From a virus: a stretch of DNA of 37,118 bases. Both the position numbers and the translations under genes were made by a program. The notes beneath the pieces are model-generated. The model did not search any database and was not told where the DNA came from. It worked only from the letters and a program-made list of their open reading frames with translations. Positions 5,372 to 31,570 of the stretch are shown here, one piece after another (position 1 is the stretch's first letter; each line of letters begins with the position of its first letter). Location: positions 1-37,118 of IMG/VR virus record IMGVR_UViG_3300009788_000204; one strand, written 5' to 3'.

Positions 5372-5576
5372 AACGAAGTCCTTTTCGCTGATCCCTGGGA
5401 AATGCTTTGAATGTGGCGGCAGAAAGTTTAAAAATGGTGTTTGCGTTAAATGCAAACGAAGCTACCGGCATACAGACAGTCGATCAAAAAAGAAACGGTT
5501 CAAGGTGTTTTTAAGTCGCAAAGATATTGATGCCATTAAGGAATCAGGAGACGAATGGAAGCAATCGAAGTCGTAA
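5325..5576 (+). CDS. Basic zinc-ribbon protein (TTG start)
   Basis: About 83 residues. The start is a TTG at 5325 (5337 is an alternative), inside the previous gene by 47 bases. The N-terminus is a cluster of Lys and Arg (RRRRKAK). A zinc ribbon CFECGG then CVKC follows at about residues 27-43, and a basic C-terminus ends in the terminase start. Zinc-ribbon plus basic patches suggests nucleic-acid binding, possibly an accessory to packaging. The start choice is uncertain. Confidence 0.55.
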   Translation: MSRKLKRRRRKAKEPKTKSFSLIPGKCFECGGRKFKNGVCVKCKRSYRHTDSRSKKKRFKVFLSRKDIDAIKESGDEWKQSKS

Positions 5577-7843
5577 ATGATGAGCTAAAGATAAACATTT
5601 TCCCGCGCCAGGCGGAATTCATTGCTTCAACGGTGGATGACGCTCTTTTCGGCGGAGCCGCTGGTGGCGGCAAGTCCCATGCCCTTCTCATTTTCTCCGG
5701 CAAACGACGGATGGAATACCCCGGTACAAACGGCATTATCTTTCGACGAACCTTCCCCGAACTAGACAAATCAATCATCCGGGAATCCCTGACGATGTAT
5801 CCCCACTTCGGCGCGAAATACAATTCATCAAAACGAGAGTGGCGGTTCCCGAATGGATCTATCCAGGAATTCGGTTATTGTGAACGAGATGGGGATGTTT
5901 ATAAATACCAATCGGCTGAATACGAGGACATGTGCTTTGATGAGTTGACCCACATGACCCAATTCCAATTTTCGTATCTGACCTCCCGCGTAAGAACTTC
6001 AAAATCCGGCATTAAACCTTTAATCCGCTGTGCAACGAATCCTGGGAACATCGGCCATCAATGGGTATGGCAACGCTACATTGAACCGTCCCTGGTTCAT
6101 AAGATCTGGAAAGAAGAGAACACCGGCAAAACAATGACATTCATTCCGGCCAAGATAGCAGACAATCCTGCATTGTCAGAAGCCGATCCGGGTTACATGC
6201 GGCGATTGAAAGAATTGCCGGAGAAGAAATATTTGGCGCTTGCCGAAGGACGCTGGGATGTGTTTGAGGGAGCCTACTTCCCAGAGTGGGATCCAACGCC
6301 AGGAATGTCGATTTTACATGGACCGCATATTCCAGAAAAGAACAATTTAAAATATATCGGCATGGATTGGGGCTATGCAGATCCAGCAGCCATATATTGG
6401 GCGGAATTAACCCCGAATGGAAAAGTGTATGTTTATCGAGAACTGTACGTCACCCAACTTGGTCCGAAGAAATTGGCGAAAGCCATTCTGGACATGTGCC
6501 CCAAAGATGAGCAATACGAATGGATGTCGGCCAGCCCGGAGATCTGGGGCAAGAAAACGGAATTGGATGGTGGCGGCGAGCCCATTCAACAAATTATGCA
6601 GGGTGTTTTTGGCGACCGAATCAATATGCAGAAAGCTAACAATGCGCGGGTTCCGGGTTGGATGAAAATGCGGGAATACATGATGTTGGCTCCCGATGGA
6701 CGACCCTGGATGCAGGTGTCCCCCGATTGCCATAATCTAATTCGAACTATTCCCGGGATGATTCATTCTGATAAAAAACCAGAGGATATGAGCGAGAGAG
6801 GCGAGGACCATCCCTGCGTTTCCGGGGAAACTCTGATTCAAACAAAAAAGGGTAAATTTCCAATAAAAGACTTGGTTGGAACAGAAGGGAAGCTCTGGAC
6901 TGTTGAGGGGTGGAAAAAATATTCTGATTGTAGGATGACTCGCAAGAACACGGAAACTGTTAGATTAAAGTTGATTGACGGTTCCCATATTGAAGCAACT
7001 CCGGATCATCGGGTTTTGACATACAACGGATGGAAGCGAATAGATTGCTTAAGACCAAGCGATTTGATACGATCCGCTATATGGGAGTCAAAAAAATCAG
7101 TAATTCTATTCAATCGTTTCAAGGTGTCCGGTATTATAAATGCGGTCCGTATTTCCAAAAAAATGGCGTTAGGCTCCATCGTCAAGTTTGGGAATTCCAT
7201 AACGGAAGGATTCTTGGCGGGTATCATGTCCATCACAAGGACCATGATAGATCGAATAATTCCATCTCAAACCTCGAATTACTCCAAGAATTTGAGCATT
7301 TGTCTCTTCACGCTAAATCTGAGAAAAATAGACAGAGAGCTAAGATTCACCTTGAATCAGTCAGGCATCTCGCCGAAAAGTGGCATCGAGATCCAAAAAA
7401 TCACGAAGCCCATATTAGAATCGGAAAAAAAGCATGGGAATCAGTTAAGAAAAAAGGAAAAACTTCCTTATCCTGCCAATGGTGCAAAAAAAAGTATAAA
7501 ACATATCGCCCTCAAATTTCTAAATTTTGTCACCTTAATTGTAAAATGCAGTATTACAGAAGATATAATGAACGAGTTAAAATATACTTCATGGAATACA
7601 ATAGAGCCCGCCGAAAGACAAAACGTCTACAATCTTGAAGTAGAAGATGTTCATTCCTTTGCTGTTAATGACGGAATTGTTGCACACAACTGCGAGGGTT
7701 TACGGTATCTGCTCGTATCGCTATCCGATGTTCCCAAATTTGAATTGAACCCGTATGAATCAAACTATGATAAGATTTTCGGCCGTAGGACAACGGTTCA
7801 CGAAGCCATGTCCAATTTGCCAGTCCCACAGAGGGGATACTAA
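5555..7843 (+). CDS. terL: Terminase large subunit with an intein
   Basis: 762 residues, of which about 470 are terminase. The N-terminal ATPase shows the Walker A motif GGAAGGGKS at residues 33-41, Walker B YEDMCFDE at 123-130 and a coupling motif ATNPGN at 160-165. The nuclease domain begins with GMDWG (Asp271). The enzyme cuts and pumps DNA into the capsid through the portal. An intein of 292 residues (421-712) sits between GEDHP and CEGLRY, so the C-terminal extein is only 50 residues and carries the last nuclease acidic residue. Splicing is therefore needed for an active nuclease. A GGAG lies upstream of the ATG. The gene is the first of the packaging module proper. Confidence 0.95.
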   Translation: MEAIEVVNDELKINIFPRQAEFIASTVDDALFGGAAGGGKSHALLIFSGKRRMEYPGTNGIIFRRTFPELDKSIIRESLTMYPHFGAKYNSSKREWRFPNGSIQEFGYCERDGDVYKYQSAEYEDMCFDELTHMTQFQFSYLTSRVRTSKSGIKPLIRCATNPGNIGHQWVWQRYIEPSLVHKIWKEENTGKTMTFIPAKIADNPALSEADPGYMRRLKELPEKKYLALAEGRWDVFEGAYFPEWDPTPGMSILHGPHIPEKNNLKYIGMDWGYADPAAIYWAELTPNGKVYVYRELYVTQLGPKKLAKAILDMCPKDEQYEWMSASPEIWGKKTELDGGGEPIQQIMQGVFGDRINMQKANNARVPGWMKMREYMMLAPDGRPWMQVSPDCHNLIRTIPGMIHSDKKPEDMSERGEDHPCVSGETLIQTKKGKFPIKDLVGTEGKLWTVEGWKKYSDCRMTRKNTETVRLKLIDGSHIEATPDHRVLTYNGWKRIDCLRPSDLIRSAIWESKKSVILFNRFKVSGIINAVRISKKMALGSIVKFGNSITEGFLAGIMSITRTMIDRIIPSQTSNYSKNLSICLFTLNLRKIDRELRFTLNQSGISPKSGIEIQKITKPILESEKKHGNQLRKKEKLPYPANGAKKSIKHIALKFLNFVTLIVKCSITEDIMNELKYTSWNTIEPAERQNVYNLEVEDVHSFAVNDGIVAHNCEGLRYLLVSLSDVPKFELNPYESNYDKIFGRRTTVHEAMSNLPVPQRGY
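7030..7638 (+). CDS. HNH homing endonuclease, out of frame inside the intein
   Basis: Up to 202 residues from ATG 7030, or 185 from ATG 7081. The HNH core is clear: LHRQVWEFHNG, then YHVHHKD at residues 65-71, NN at 76-77, NLELL from 81 and H90. A second zinc site follows with Cys149, Cys152, Cys167 and Cys171. The frame is -1 relative to the terminase. No good ribosome binding site is visible at either ATG, so expression could be by frameshifting at 7090-7096. The stop lies seven codons into block F. The enzyme would cut intein-free terL genes to spread the intein. No inactivating stop is seen in the core. Confidence 0.8.
   Translation: MEANRLLKTKRFDTIRYMGVKKISNSIQSFQGVRYYKCGPYFQKNGVRLHRQVWEFHNGRILGGYHVHHKDHDRSNNSISNLELLQEFEHLSLHAKSEKNRQRAKIHLESVRHLAEKWHRDPKNHEAHIRIGKKAWESVKKKGKTSLSCQWCKKKYKTYRPQISKFCHLNCKMQYYRRYNERVKIYFMEYNRARRKTKRLQS
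7090..7096 (+). promoter_or_regulatory. Slippery heptamer A AAA AAA (candidate -1 frameshift site)
   Basis: Seven As sit in the exact zero-frame arrangement TCA AAA AAA TCA of the terminase frame, so a -1 slip leads straight into the HNH frame (the next codon becomes ATC, Ile). This is a bacterial-type slippery sequence and could also promote transcriptional slippage. No downstream stem-loop was verified. An A7/A8 sequencing error would look the same. Confidence 0.4.
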
Positions 7844-9132: not shown

Positions 9133-11379
9133 ATGGCGGTTCTTTCAACAGAAGCAGAACGTCAGATTGAAAACAAAATAGAGAAAGATTTTGTAATCGC
9201 TCGCGGTGCGCCCCAGGAATTCAAAGACTCTCAAGATCAAATCGAAGAAGCGGAATCCCGTTTTCGTCGCCGTGAAATCATCCTTGACGATACAACCCGC
9301 TCCAGCCTTGAAGGACAACTCCGTTTAATCATCGAAGGATGGCGCGAGGATCGATCTTCGCTTCGAACCAAGCTCCGCGAATGGAACGACCTTTACGAAG
9401 GTGTAACGACGGTTACAGATTTCCCGTGGATCGGCGCCTCCCATGTTCACATACCCATACCCAAAATCAAAATCCGGGAAATTAGGTCAGCTATTGACCG
9501 CTCAACAATGCGACCTACTCCGTTCCTTCACGCCACCTACGCCGGTCCCCGAGATTTGTTTGAAGAATCAAAGGATTTCGTTGGAAGTATAGAGAACTTC
9601 ACAGAGGATAAACTTAAAAACGCCACGAATATTCACAGCATTTTGGTTGATTCATTGATCCCCATAATGCGGGATGGAACTTGTGCGGTTGAGATTGTCT
9701 GGGATACCGAATGGGAGGGTGTGTTTGATTTTAAGACGTATGAGAACTCGGAAGAATTTATAACAGACTATCCCACCGCTAAAAATGCCGGTATCAGTCA
9801 AAAGAAATACGCTCAAGTTGTTGACCAGTTGAATCTGGGGCAACCGTTCGAGATTCGTTATGAATACGAAGTGGCAACCTATGATGGGCCGCGGGCATCG
9901 ATTGTTCCCCTCATCGACTTTGTTCATTGGCCTGTTTTTATAACAGATCTAAGTGAGGCCATTGTTCATGGAAAACGAGTCTGGAAGAATGAATTAGAGC
10001 TTGAGAACATGATGGCGATGGGAAAGTTTACGAATGAGCAGCAAGTGATTGATACTCTGGCTGAATCCGGAGATGAGCGGGTTGATGAAGAATTAAGAAC
10101 GTCCAGAGATCAGATTGAAGGTATTTCCCGCCAAAAGAACAAACAGGACGCCAAGGAATTTGAATTCTTTCGATTGGTTCTCCGGATGGCATTGACTGAC
10201 GAAGATAAGAAAATGAACCGAAAAAGGAAATATCTTTGTTGGTATCGTGAAAAGAACAACCAAATTTACCACATTGAGCCCTATCCTGTTCGGAAGGGGA
10301 AAGATTCGTATTTTCTGCTCCGTTTTGTTAAACGCGACAATCGATTGCTGGGAATGTCATTCATGGACGATATTTCCGATTTATCGTTTGAGATCGACAT
10401 TGTCCATCGACAACGTACAAACACGCGCACAATTACGCATGTCCCTTCTTTTAAGGCCAAAGAAGGGGCAAAGTCACATTTTGACCCTTCGGATCGAAAA
10501 CTTCGATTTCGACCGGGCGTTGTTTTCTGGCTTAAAGATATTGACGATGTATCTCAATTTGACATTCGCCCAGTTGATCTGTCCGGTTCCATTGACGATG
10601 AATTGCTGTTACTCAATTTCATCGACCAGGTTTTAGGAACCATCGGCCAATCCGGCCAAGGCAACCCCATCGATCCTCGCGCACCCGCCCGGAAAGAACA
10701 GCAGCAGGTTCGTCAGTCCACGAATCGATTGGAAGATTACGTGGCTGAAATTTTGCCTACTTTTTCAAAAATAGGCCAGCATGTTCTTGATTTGTATTAT
10801 CAATTTGGACCCAACCGAATTAAGTTCTTCTCTGAGGACAAAGACGGGAACCTTATCGAACAACAAATCGAACGAACCAAGTTATTTAACCCCAATGTCA
10901 TGTTCCGGGTAAACGGGACTTCCGTATTCGCATCGCCCGAACTTGAGTTTCAGAGAATGCTTGAGATCTATTCAATCATCGGCCAAGATCCCATTACAGC
11001 ACCGGACCCAAAGATACGCAGAAATTCGCTTGGCCGGCTGTTACGCGCTGGACGGGTCCAGGACATAAAAGACCTTCTGCCGCCCGCACAAACAACTGAA
11101 CAGGCCCCGTCGATTGAGTCAGAGGAAGAAAAGGATCGTCAGAATCGTCGCAAGGCTCAAGAACAAAAAGAATCGGCTCGCCTTGCTGAACAGAAATTAA
11201 ATTTACAAGGACAACTAGAAAAAGAAGGACTACGAGCAGAAGGCAACCTTGCTGTTGCTCGCACAGCCCAAAATGGTAATACGCCGCCGACTGGTGCGCC
11301 TCCGGGAATTCCCCCTGCTGCTCCGCAAGGGATTCCTCCGGCGGCTCCTCCAGTTCCGCCAGCAATACCACCGGGATAA
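9133..11379 (+). CDS. Portal protein
   Basis: 748 residues, the expected length for portals of short-tailed phages. It starts with a charged helical region, then the familiar portal segment around residues 90-130 (WIGASHVHIPIP and IRSAIDRS), the clip and stem regions, and a long C-terminal helical tail rich in Gln, Arg and Glu that ends in Pro/Ala-rich repeats (APPGIPPAAP). The portal ring is the entry for DNA into the capsid and the base of the tail. It follows the terminase in the usual order. The Pro-rich tail is longer than in many portals. GGAGG lies upstream of the ATG. Confidence 0.85.
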   Translation: MAVLSTEAERQIENKIEKDFVIARGAPQEFKDSQDQIEEAESRFRRREIILDDTTRSSLEGQLRLIIEGWREDRSSLRTKLREWNDLYEGVTTVTDFPWIGASHVHIPIPKIKIREIRSAIDRSTMRPTPFLHATYAGPRDLFEESKDFVGSIENFTEDKLKNATNIHSILVDSLIPIMRDGTCAVEIVWDTEWEGVFDFKTYENSEEFITDYPTAKNAGISQKKYAQVVDQLNLGQPFEIRYEYEVATYDGPRASIVPLIDFVHWPVFITDLSEAIVHGKRVWKNELELENMMAMGKFTNEQQVIDTLAESGDERVDEELRTSRDQIEGISRQKNKQDAKEFEFFRLVLRMALTDEDKKMNRKRKYLCWYREKNNQIYHIEPYPVRKGKDSYFLLRFVKRDNRLLGMSFMDDISDLSFEIDIVHRQRTNTRTITHVPSFKAKEGAKSHFDPSDRKLRFRPGVVFWLKDIDDVSQFDIRPVDLSGSIDDELLLLNFIDQVLGTIGQSGQGNPIDPRAPARKEQQQVRQSTNRLEDYVAEILPTFSKIGQHVLDLYYQFGPNRIKFFSEDKDGNLIEQQIERTKLFNPNVMFRVNGTSVFASPELEFQRMLEIYSIIGQDPITAPDPKIRRNSLGRLLRAGRVQDIKDLLPPAQTTEQAPSIESEEEKDRQNRRKAQEQKESARLAEQKLNLQGQLEKEGLRAEGNLAVARTAQNGNTPPTGAPPGIPPAAPQGIPPAAPPVPPAIPPG

Positions 11380-27925: not shown

Positions 27926-30900
27926 ATGAAAAAGATATTAATATTCATATCTGTTTTTTCCTTCCTCAGCATATCGAATGCTGTGGATACTAAGGTATCC
28001 GATCTAACTGAAGACACAGCACCGACGACAGATGATCTTCTTTATACAGTAGACGATCCTTCAGGAACTCCAGCCAGTCGCAAGGCCACGATTGCCAATG
28101 TCCTGGACAACGCCATCAAATTGCAGGATACCCTCCAAACCGGTGCTACGTTTTATGTCTCATCGGGGACCGTTGAATCGGGGTTTATGGTCAATGGTGA
28201 ATTAAACCCAGCGGGTGGTGTTACTGACGGAACTCTAGAGGAAGCGGACATAGGCGATTTGACCCATACAACAGATACGGGTCCGTCTCCCGATTGCTCC
28301 GGCACCACAACATATCAAGACGGGGAAGCGGGATGTGATGACATCAGCGATGTTTATGTTGATGGAAGCGATACGATATCAGGAGATGGAACGGCTACGT
28401 TTAATCCGGGTGGTGCGACGACATTAACCGTTACGGACGATTCGCACAACCATGCGACAGGCACAATAACGACAGACTTAATATGGGATACAACTGTTTT
28501 GCAGTCGGGGTCTACTTTTTATGTTTCATCTGGAACTGTTGATGCGGAACTAAATGTCCCTGCCGATACGATTGACGCGATAACAGAAATTGCTTCAGCC
28601 CTTAAGACAGGAAGCGATGCCACCATAGTGACCGGAACCTCCGGGAGTACCGGCGACTGTGTGGAGTGGGATTCCAATGGTGATATTGTCACAGCGGGAG
28701 CGCCATGTGGAACCAGTGGAGGAACAGCATCAACATTGGAAGTATTAATCGAGCCCGTTTCTTCATCTCCTACGGCAACTATAAATCTCAGTAGCGATAC
28801 GTTTGTGGGGGTTGCCGCGTCATCAACCATGACCATTACCATGAACTTTTCCTCTATAACGGCATTGGGTCAGACGATTGACTTGGCGGATACGGGTGAA
28901 ATTACAGGAACACTTGCCGTTGGCAATGGTGGATCGGGCGCTACGTCATTAACCGACGGTGGCGTTCTTTTGGGATCTGGCTCTAGCGCGTTCACTGCTT
29001 TGGGCGTGTTGGCGGATGGGTCAATTATTGTTGGTGACGGCGCAACTGATCCCGTTGCCTTGGCTGCTTTTACGAACTCCACTGGAGATTTGATTCATGA
29101 GGCGGGCGGATTGGAAGCGGACGTATCGGCCTTTGCTGGGGTTGTGGCGGTTAATGGAGGCTCAACGGTTGAGGTCAATTCCAAGGCAGAGTTGGAAACC
29201 CAGATCGCTGACGTTGCCGACTTTGCAGAAGCCGATGGAGATACGTTTACGGGTGTCCATGATTTTGGCGGAGCGACTTCACTTGAGATCGTTAATGGGA
29301 CAGGCCCCAATGTGGATACAGAAGGTCAGGTGGAGATTACAACCGATGCTTATACCACAACAGGATCCAGCGGAACCATCACATTCTATTCCAATGGGAC
29401 GACATATTATGTGGCGGCCACAACGGGCGTTGCCTCTGATAATAACATTGTCAAATTTGATGCAACTCTAAATCAGTGGAGCCTGGAGGCCGATGCTGGT
29501 GGCGGAGCTTTTGACGATACAGGTGATCCGATTGTTCAAAACACCACTACCAAGGATGTCCATGTAGGTGATGGCGCTGGGACATTAGCGGGGAAATTGG
29601 AAATTGGAGGCGATGCCGATCAGCCTCAGCTTGTAGTCGAAGGGTTCTCACCTCAAACCGATTCTTTGGCTATCTTTCAACAGGATGACGATACGGAAGT
29701 GACTACGATTGAGGATAGTGGACTTATAACTACTCTTGTCGGCATTGATGCGATTGGTGCTGTTGATTTCGATATTGCATCGGCGGACGTTACGGACGTG
29801 ACGGTGGTTACGGATGGAGGAACCGTTATTCTTGATGGGGATATAACCCAGGACGCCGGGACCACGTTGTTCATGGGTGGACTTTTAGATGCAACAGGTA
29901 ACGTGGATATGGATTATGGATCGGCTGACATTGACGACCATACCTTTACAACAGACGGTACGGGTACGGCTGAGTTTGTTATTCCAGCCCAGTCCATTGA
30001 CTCAACAGAAATCCTGAATGCAACATTAGTCGATGCGGACATGGCGGACGAGGCATTGGACGCCGATAAGATTGTCGATGATACGGTTGATGATAATGAC
30101 CTTGATGTCGTGGCAGGTGGGACGGGAGTTTCAACTTTAGCAGATGGATCTGTCTTGTTGGGTTCAGGAACAGGGGATATTACAGCCCAAGCCTTGGCCA
30201 CAACAGAGATACTCATCGGCGACGGCGTGGGAGATCCCACCTCGGCAGCATTAAGTGGTGATGCCACCATGACTAATGGCGGTGTGGTGACGGTTGTTGA
30301 CGACTCCCACAATCACGTCATAACCAATATAGACGCATTCACTAAAGCGAACCTGGAAACCCAGACTTCAGATGTAGCTGACTATGCCGAAGCGGATGGA
30401 GATGTTTATACAAATGCTCATGATTTTGGTGGTGCGGGAAGCCTAGAGATTCCCCAGGCTGCTGTTCCTACTTTGGATGCGGTTGGTGAAATAGCACTTG
30501 ATACATTATTAAATGATTTCCAGCCCACGGTTGCCTATGCCACTTCGACAACCGCTGGCGAGATGTATATGGTGGCCATCTCAAGTACCGAATATCATTC
30601 TGTGGCGGACAACGAGATCGTTAAATATGACGCAGCTTTAAATCAGTTCCGATTGGAAACAGAGACAGCCGGTGGCACTGGTGCATTCAGTGACGCAGGG
30701 GATCCGATTGTTCAGAATACAACAGGAAAAGATGTTCACGTAGGTGACGGGGCCGGTACGTTAACAGGAAAACTTGAGGTGGGCGGAGACGCAGACCAAC
30801 CCCAGTTGGTTGTTGAACAACATTCAGCACAAACAGACGACCCATTTATAATTCAACAAGACGATGACGCGGAACTATTCAGTATTTCTCCTAGCCCGTC

Positions 30901-31570
30901 CATTAAATTGTTGGAGGTTGCCGATGCCCCAGGCGACACAGCAAACTATGGTCAGATCTGGGTTAATCTGGCGACGCCCAATGAATTGTTTTTTACTGAT
31001 GATGCAGGAACAGATTTTCAATTAGGAGCCGGAGGCACAGACACAAACGCACCCAAACTTTACTCATTCTCTGCGGCCGGTTTGCTGGCTCATATCCCAG
31101 ACGGCGTAGCTGAGTTTGACGGAGTGGCTCCGGTAACTCAAGATGATGGGACTAACCTTGATATCTGGGTTGCTTCGTTTGATGATACCGCAGACGAATG
31201 TAGGGGTTTCCAGATTATCATGCCCGAAGATATCGATACGTCCGGTAGCGCTGAGTTTTATGTGACGTGGTATTCTCAAACAGCAACAACGGGGAGTTCG
31301 ATGTGGTATGTGGCGGTATCAAGCGCGTCAGAAGGAGAAAGCTGGGATTTCATCCCTGGCGATTTCCCGGCGGCGTCGGATGCGGTTCAAGGAACAGTTG
31401 ATCTTGTAACAGAAACAACCTGGACGGATACGATTTCAGCTTTGGGCTGGCTTGCAGAGCAAACAGTAATTGGCTGGTTCTGTCGTGATGGAGACGGAGA
31501 TCAGGGAACAGATGATTTAGTCGGAGATGCGGAGGTGATTGTTTTCGGGATCAAGGTGCCCAGGACATGA
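27926..31570 (+). CDS. Giant tail fibre-like protein with duplicated domain
   Basis: 1214 residues. Signal MKKILIFISVFSFLSISNA, cleavage before VDT. The start of the mature part (DLTEDTAPTTDDLLYTVDDP) is typical of fibre proteins in many phages. The middle is beta-repeat sequence of Asp, Gly, Thr and Val with FYVSSGTV repeats, two DSHNH motifs and a duplicated block (residues about 420-572 and 807-964) carrying DVHVGDGAGTL and GGDADQPQLVVE. The C-terminus (from about residue 1040) differs and may be the receptor-binding tip. Alternative: a large exported adhesin. Confidence 0.75.
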   Translation: MKKILIFISVFSFLSISNAVDTKVSDLTEDTAPTTDDLLYTVDDPSGTPASRKATIANVLDNAIKLQDTLQTGATFYVSSGTVESGFMVNGELNPAGGVTDGTLEEADIGDLTHTTDTGPSPDCSGTTTYQDGEAGCDDISDVYVDGSDTISGDGTATFNPGGATTLTVTDDSHNHATGTITTDLIWDTTVLQSGSTFYVSSGTVDAELNVPADTIDAITEIASALKTGSDATIVTGTSGSTGDCVEWDSNGDIVTAGAPCGTSGGTASTLEVLIEPVSSSPTATINLSSDTFVGVAASSTMTITMNFSSITALGQTIDLADTGEITGTLAVGNGGSGATSLTDGGVLLGSGSSAFTALGVLADGSIIVGDGATDPVALAAFTNSTGDLIHEAGGLEADVSAFAGVVAVNGGSTVEVNSKAELETQIADVADFAEADGDTFTGVHDFGGATSLEIVNGTGPNVDTEGQVEITTDAYTTTGSSGTITFYSNGTTYYVAATTGVASDNNIVKFDATLNQWSLEADAGGGAFDDTGDPIVQNTTTKDVHVGDGAGTLAGKLEIGGDADQPQLVVEGFSPQTDSLAIFQQDDDTEVTTIEDSGLITTLVGIDAIGAVDFDIASADVTDVTVVTDGGTVILDGDITQDAGTTLFMGGLLDATGNVDMDYGSADIDDHTFTTDGTGTAEFVIPAQSIDSTEILNATLVDADMADEALDADKIVDDTVDDNDLDVVAGGTGVSTLADGSVLLGSGTGDITAQALATTEILIGDGVGDPTSAALSGDATMTNGGVVTVVDDSHNHVITNIDAFTKANLETQTSDVADYAEADGDVYTNAHDFGGAGSLEIPQAAVPTLDAVGEIALDTLLNDFQPTVAYATSTTAGEMYMVAISSTEYHSVADNEIVKYDAALNQFRLETETAGGTGAFSDAGDPIVQNTTGKDVHVGDGAGTLTGKLEVGGDADQPQLVVEQHSAQTDDPFIIQQDDDAELFSISPSPSIKLLEVADAPGDTANYGQIWVNLATPNELFFTDDAGTDFQLGAGGTDTNAPKLYSFSAAGLLAHIPDGVAEFDGVAPVTQDDGTNLDIWVASFDDTADECRGFQIIMPEDIDTSGSAEFYVTWYSQTATTGSSMWYVAVSSASEGESWDFIPGDFPAASDAVQGTVDLVTETTWTDTISALGWLAEQTVIGWFCRDGDGDQGTDDLVGDAEVIVFGIKVPRT
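29183..29641 (+). repeat. Fibre internal repeat, copy 1
   Basis: Residues about 420-572 of the giant fibre. Landmarks: KAELETQ, FAEADGD, HDFGGA, IVKFDATLNQW, GDPIVQNTT, KDVHVGDGAGTL and GGDADQPQLVVE. Copy 2 shares the landmarks in order. Confidence 0.8.
30344..30817 (+). repeat. Fibre internal repeat, copy 2
   Basis: Residues about 807-964 of the giant fibre, with KANLETQ, YAEADGD, HDFGGA, IVKYDAALNQF, GDPIVQNTT, KDVHVGDGAGTL and GGDADQPQLVVE. DNA has diverged mostly at synonymous positions, so the duplication is old and kept under selection. Confidence 0.8.

Follow-up and report, generated by a model that had tools for sequence, protein, structure and literature searches.

A phage terminase intein with an HNH endonuclease gene in a second reading frame

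Results and discussion

The gene for the large terminase subunit (terL) of the phage studied here is interrupted by an intein whose central part, read in the -1 frame, encodes an HNH endonuclease. The window, which is the whole stretch of 37,118 nucleotides that was analysed, corresponds to the IMG/VR virus record IMGVR_UViG_3300009788_000204. As judged from sequence comparisons across the family, this dual-coding intein is real, recurrent and under selection, and in it a single segment of DNA is under selection for two purposes; protein splicing, HNH synthesis, DNA cutting and homing are its putative activities. At least 52 different virus sequences have the two-layer layout.

Organization of the terL locus

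The features of the locus, all on the + strand, are listed below in the coordinates of the window.

5555–7843, + strand: terL ORF, open throughout, encoding a precursor of 762 aa that comprises N-extein, intein and C-extein
6815–7690, + strand: intein of 292 aa, from Cys1 to Asn292, equivalent to TerL residues 421–712
6815–7078, + strand: N-terminal half of the HINT splicing fold, with blocks A and B, supported by pLDDT and the match to 1mi8
6998–7009, + strand: block B, TPDH, in which T62 and H65 are invariant
7030–7080, + strand: candidate upstream starts in the HNH frame, ATG 7030 and TTG 7045
7079–7576, + strand: intein linker, encoded by the DNA of the HNH gene in the terL reading frame, stop-free and unconserved (pLDDT 38–78)
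7081–7638, + strand: HNH endonuclease gene, -1 with respect to the terL frame, supported by HNH_3 and by the aligned starts of the family
7090–7096, + strand: A7 tract, a slippery heptamer in register for a -1 shift out of the terL frame, and a possible alternative route into the HNH frame
7231–7299, + strand: core of the HNH motif, H51 H52 ... N60 ... N64 L65 ... H73 in the numbering of the 185-aa HNH
7474–7542, + strand: Cys4 motif, C132 C135 C150 C154, with a putative zinc-finger-like role
7577–7690, + strand: C-terminal half of the HINT fold, with blocks F and G and HN before Cys+1 (TIGR01443, E 2e-6; pLDDT 94–98)
7636–7638, + strand: stop codon of the HNH gene, TGA

The terL product matches Terminase_6N (E 6e-8) and the terminase large subunit family PHROG_979 (1.5e-53). 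Among the Pfam and NCBIfam models, its intein matches Intein_splicing of Pfam (E 3e-13), TIGR01445 and TIGR01443. The first-pass annotation, made from the nucleotide sequence alone, had placed an intein with intact blocks A, B, F and G at 6815–7690 of an uninterrupted terL frame, and both the limits and the blocks were borne out. It had also described an intact HNH in the -1 frame, in agreement with the HNH_3 match (E 3e-14) on the 202-aa ORF 7030–7638, which begins at the longest ATG start, 7030. The two sense frames, said to be open over about 600 bases, are indeed simultaneously open from 6994 to 7635. The ATG at 7081 is the likely start of the gene, as it aligns with the family start MxVxxISxTIQEF (MGVKKISNSIQSF against MQIRVISKTTQEF and similar sequences in the family alignment).

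In the structural region of the window, the ORFs at 9133–11379 (748 aa) and 27926–31570 (1214 aa) have no PHROG match at E 0.001. The phage itself is a divergent tailed phage.

The splicing domain

The intein shows the hallmarks of class 1, that is, a nucleophile at position 1, a block B of the TxxH type, a terminal Asn and a Cys at +1. Residues C1, T62, H65 and N292 are invariant among 45 aligned sequences. The element is inserted in frame at a conserved site of the host protein, and intein-free alleles of this site occur, as in the terL of locus L134. The AlphaFold model of the intein reaches a pLDDT of about 96 over residues 1–88 and 94–98 in the C-terminal half, and falls to 38–78 in the middle, where the linker is mostly predicted as disordered or as low-confidence helix. 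The modelled HINT domain superposes on the Ssp DnaB mini-intein (1mi8; Z 22.2, rmsd 1.2, 128 aligned) and on gp41-1 (6riz; Z 20.5, rmsd 1.5, 124 aligned). By sequence, gp41-1 is also the intein's best match in the PDB; it presumably derives from a fractured gene with a split intein. The terL ORF of the window is continuous over 5555–7843 and not divided into the two ORFs of such a gene. Nor does the element correspond to a canonical endonuclease-containing intein, which carries its endonuclease in the same chain, since its HNH lies in the -1 frame. Conserved residues and structure prediction together point to a complete intein of the class 1 type.

The HNH endonuclease

The nested gene encodes an HNH_3 domain with intact catalytic residues, as in HNH homing endonucleases; the residues of the motif core and the Cys4 are invariant among the 45 aligned sequences. 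The AlphaFold model of the HNH has a pLDDT of 93.6. Its best structural match is the intron-encoded I-HmuI (1u3e); this match is weak (Z 7.7, rmsd 7.1, 110 aligned). The same structure was also the best profile match of the HNH, which likens it to the I-HmuI-like homing endonucleases, and a phmmer search of the PDB with the single HNH sequence returned matches at chance level only.

In close pairs of relatives, dN/dS of the HNH frame was 0.09–0.14, against 1.5–2.1 for the same bases in the splicing frame, and the identity of the linker was always well below that of the HNH. The linker ratio above 1 is no sign of positive selection, because it follows from the codon geometry of the overlap, in which third positions of the HNH are second positions of the linker. 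The substitution patterns of the relatives indicate that the HNH frame is under purifying selection and that the linker in the splicing frame drifts.

A second Cys motif (NKYxxxxTCSxxC), located near the C-terminus in most relatives, is missing from the HNH of the window (7540–7638) and from those of L001, L010 and L033.

An open splicing frame across the family

The HNH and its alignment served as queries against IMG/VR, GTDB genomes and GenBank phages, which gave about 120 loci with relatives. Intein N, intein C and the HNH were then located in each locus, each with a profile of its own. The survey set comprises 57 non-redundant loci with this HNH between both intein blocks. In 52 of the 57, a subset defined by zero stops, the intein lies in the +1 frame of the HNH and is uninterrupted from block A to block G; the unselected 57 agree, the other five having split or shifted frames. 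One of these five has a single frameshift, and four (L041, L046, L047 and L049) are fractured, with the intein halves in separate ORFs. The HNH is in frame with the splicing halves in none of the 57 loci. This is the outcome of the comparison of homologous TerL inteins that the first-pass annotation had called for, and the homologues with a continuous HNH intein that it had named as counter-evidence did not turn up. Three of the 52 loci come from GenBank, namely those of Tetrasphaera phage TJE1, Acinetobacter phage Highwayman and Rhodobacteraceae phage LS06-2018-MD07.

That a frame of this length would seldom stay open by chance had been proposed from the window alone. The direction of this argument was right and its strength was overstated. 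With the codon usage of the genome, the probability of an open +1 frame is 0.007 for the 185-aa HNH and 0.002 for 202 aa, and among the remaining genes of the contig, all 4279 windows of 185 codons are interrupted in the +1 frame. With the HNH's own synonymous codons shuffled the probability rises to 0.18, because the codon usage of the HNH is already biased. Therefore, this locus alone is only suggestive, and chance is only modestly excluded by it.

The selection that had been postulated for the open splicing frame is seen in the family-wide comparison, which is decisive. The 52 embedded HNH genes have 0 stops in the splicing frame, against 96.7 expected from synonymous codon permutation. By the same permutation, 16 free-standing relatives have 90 stops in this frame vs 84.6 expected, and the four fractured loci have 22 vs 20.7. 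The stop-free constraint is present only where the DNA doubles as intein. A codon for Leu, Ile or Val that ends in A or G creates a stop in the splicing frame when the next codon starts with A. Such pairs make up 0/187 cases in the embedded genes and 40/87 in the free-standing ones, and Met precedes a codon starting with A in 0/81 and 18/47, respectively. The constraint thus acts on both codon choice and amino acids.

Inteins of other families with an in-frame HNH were also met in the search (L025–L029 and L130), so the in-frame layout is possible in principle. Loci L025–L029 encode a phage protein of about 1043 aa, portal-like in our reading, with an in-frame HNH motif in its intein, and offer a conventional contrast. 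In locus L015 (1–1163), the dual-coding intein of terL is frameshifted close to its C-terminal block, which may reflect a sequencing error or a decaying copy.

Expression of the HNH gene

Internal initiation at the HNH's own start is most likely the general route of its expression, as suggested by the start regions of the family. Shine-Dalgarno pairing of -5 kcal/mol or better was found at 67% of the embedded HNH starts, vs 14.5% at internal ATG/GTG codons; in the two remaining frames of this region the value was 13%. Alternatively, a -1 shift of the ribosome or slippage during transcription at the A7 tract (7090–7096) could give access to the HNH frame, with a fusion of intein N and HNH as the product. 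In favour of this route, the HNH invariably lies -1 of the intein frame, and in the window A AAA AAA stands in register at the right place, with an aligned ATG devoid of a Shine-Dalgarno site. However, an in-register slippery heptamer near the HNH start occurs in only about 6 of the 52 loci, and good Shine-Dalgarno pairing in two thirds of them. Many relatives have a stop in the HNH frame 1–7 codons upstream of the HNH start, so that frameshifting would be hard to accommodate, and no significant RNA structure that might stimulate it was detected downstream of the A7 tract (z 0.19 and 1.16). Frameshifting was rejected as the general route, most relatives being without the heptamer, and was kept for the window as an alternative, though an unlikely one.

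Since no Shine-Dalgarno site was found at ATG 7081, the route of expression is less clear in the window than in most relatives. The TTG at 7045 has GGAAG 8 nt upstream (-5.7 kcal/mol). No promoter was found on the + strand upstream of the HNH. Rfam and tRNA scans of the window had zero matches, and therefore gave no sign of an intron.

Mobility and distribution

The intein shows presence/absence polymorphism in close terL alleles, which is suggestive of homing. The terL of L134, whose product is 74% identical to the TerL of the window, is continuous across the site and without intein. The terL of L137 (97% identity to the TerL of L012) is likewise empty at the site, as are 78 of the 80 close alleles of the L012 terL. 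Nearly all hosts are terminase large subunits, belonging to several families, and the intein of the window is inserted at the conserved EDH-C motif. Free-standing HNH relatives adjoin terL or terS in PAE1, SN1, FBPa53, EauM-23, Shemara and BP10. Embedded, free-standing and fractured forms are interspersed in the HNH tree, whose well-supported branches force at least six changes (deep support is weak); the layout has therefore been repeatedly gained or lost.

Comparing intein and extein identity in close pairs gave no clean signal of transfer, and this approach was set aside: in L068/L070 the intein is more conserved than the N-extein (94.5% vs 81%), and L012/L017 present the opposite (70% for the intein vs 83% for the extein). 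For this reason the case for homing rests on the empty sites.

Second matches resembling intein N lie upstream of the studied intein in L102 (137–3652), L007 (near 1029–1277) and L101 (near 329–535), and some of these terL contigs may contain two inteins; one host protein of the set also matches LAGLIDADG_3.

Proposed mechanism and alternatives

We consider it probable that the element is a mobile mini-intein in TerL, with a complete HNH homing endonuclease gene nested in the -1 frame of its linker. Translation of terL would yield a precursor in which the two HINT halves fold and splice out, leaving an intact TerL; in the terL frame, the DNA of the HNH gene would encode merely a loose, fast-drifting linker. 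The HNH would be made as a separate protein, whose translation most likely begins internally at a start codon of its own, and would cut intein-free terL alleles near the insertion site. Repair would then copy the intein and the HNH gene together, which is homing. Because TerL is essential, every mutation creating a stop in the splicing frame would be lost, so the HNH would be confined to codons that keep the +1 frame open, with no Met before a codon starting with A. In this scheme we infer precursor splicing, internal initiation, HNH cutting and homing from the organization of the locus. The separation of splicing from homing suggested in the first-pass annotation is plausible, by way of two separate proteins of which one would splice and the other would be expressed and cut. 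The scheme predicts nonsense but not frameshift decay of the HNH frame in TerL inteins.

The HNH might instead be an accessory of DNA packaging, as can be the case for HNH proteins whose genes adjoin those of terminases, and have no homing role. There are known examples of HNH proteins in phage packaging (Kala et al., as cited in PMC10448857), and in nearly all relatives the HNH lies within or beside terL or terS. However, intein and HNH are missing from 78 of 80 close terL alleles, so the HNH is dispensable; its HNH_3 domain with the Cys4 motif resembles the homing endonuclease I-HmuI, and the gene moves among intein, split-intein and free-standing sites, which makes a packaging role very improbable. 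A decaying element, in which an old HNH relic sits in a mini-intein whose frame is open by chance, could draw on the non-negligible probability at the single locus (0.18 with the HNH's own codons). This has hardly any likelihood given the invariant catalytic residues and Cys4, the dN/dS of 0.09–0.14 in close relatives and the open frame kept in 52 loci. The tracts of A6–A7 in the region, together with the data of a single contig, could finally raise the suspicion that two sequencing or assembly indels conceal an ordinary in-frame HNH intein. Such a paired error was rejected family-wide, as the same frame relation recurs in 52 non-redundant loci from divergent contigs and in three GenBank phage genomes. 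Moreover, the HNH's own stop precedes block F and the permutation test reveals a codon-level constraint on the splicing frame, so that the chance of this error is practically nil.

Returning to the nested mobile mini-intein, we lean towards regarding dual-coding inteins as a recurrent and distinct class of mobile inteins. A complete free-standing HNH gene would repeatedly enter a mini-intein out of frame, be translated on its own and come under the stop-free constraint of the essential host gene; this would provide inteins devoid of an endonuclease with a route to mobility without protein fusion, and an intermediate to fractured genes with split inteins. How inteins acquire endonucleases is an open question, and an in-frame fusion at two joints is demanding. 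The dual-coding layout requires only a stop-free +1 frame of the HNH gene, which is kept open by codon choice in the 52 loci and closes freely in free-standing or split forms. Within one HNH family, the layout connects homing genes that stand alone with contiguous inteins and with fractured genes. Surveys of inteins that read the host frame only would misscore dual-coding inteins as endonuclease-free.

Comparison with known systems

The nearest published case is the DNA methylase of mycobacteriophage ShiLan, which has an out-of-frame HNH insertion, stop-free in the host frame and sporadic in distribution (Arsenault, Gosselin, Gogarten 2025, PMC11855218). The authors detected no splicing domain in this insertion, which is for this reason thought to be retained in the methylase (PMC11855218). 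The HNH of the window is likewise out of frame in an insertion that is open in the host frame, and on re-checking the ShiLan HNH also proved to be -1 to its host frame. In contrast, the layout of the window lies inside a complete intein of an essential gene, where a splicing domain is present, and the match between the two HNHs is partial and weak. An out-of-frame HNH insertion without intein is therefore already published, and the one described here sits within a putatively splicing intein. The preprint of Gosselin et al. (bioRxiv 10.1101/2025.01.02.630785) deals with non-canonical inteins of actinobacteriophages, is cited by PMC11855218 for overlapping frames in these phages, and may overlap with the layout of the window. 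Apart from the content of that preprint, no account of an out-of-frame HNH within a splicing intein was found in the literature searched. A meganuclease has been the subject of synthetic sequence entanglement (PMC12455656), and the dual-coding intein represents a natural counterpart of it.

With the canonical mobile inteins of the HNH and LAGLIDADG types, the element shares the HINT domain, an endonuclease between blocks B and F and the presence/absence polymorphism. It differs in that their endonuclease is part of the spliced chain and the one of the window is a separate gene in another frame. Fractured genes, as described by Dassa et al. 2009 (cited in PMC10448857), have split inteins with an intervening endonuclease gene. 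The separate endonuclease gene between intein halves is common to them and to the window, but the intein halves of the window form one continuous chain.

Fractured terL genes with relatives of the window HNH were found in CL2, Vibrio 1.238.A, BL3 (as a remnant), L046, L047 and L049. In Vibrio phage 1.238.A (L131, 1–3389), terL-N with intein N, annotated as a hint domain protein, is followed by a relative of the HNH and then by intein C with terL-C, annotated as a hedgehog/hint domain protein; to judge from this gene order, its terL probably contains a natural split intein. In Lactobacillus phage CL2 (L041, 506–2771), the annotated terL ends within the intein, and the HNH gene and intein C are in separate ORFs, which makes it a fractured terL. 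In Brochothrix phage BL3 (L132, 709–2604), gp2 and gp3 resemble a fractured terL with split intein halves, between which only a C-terminal remnant of the HNH persists.
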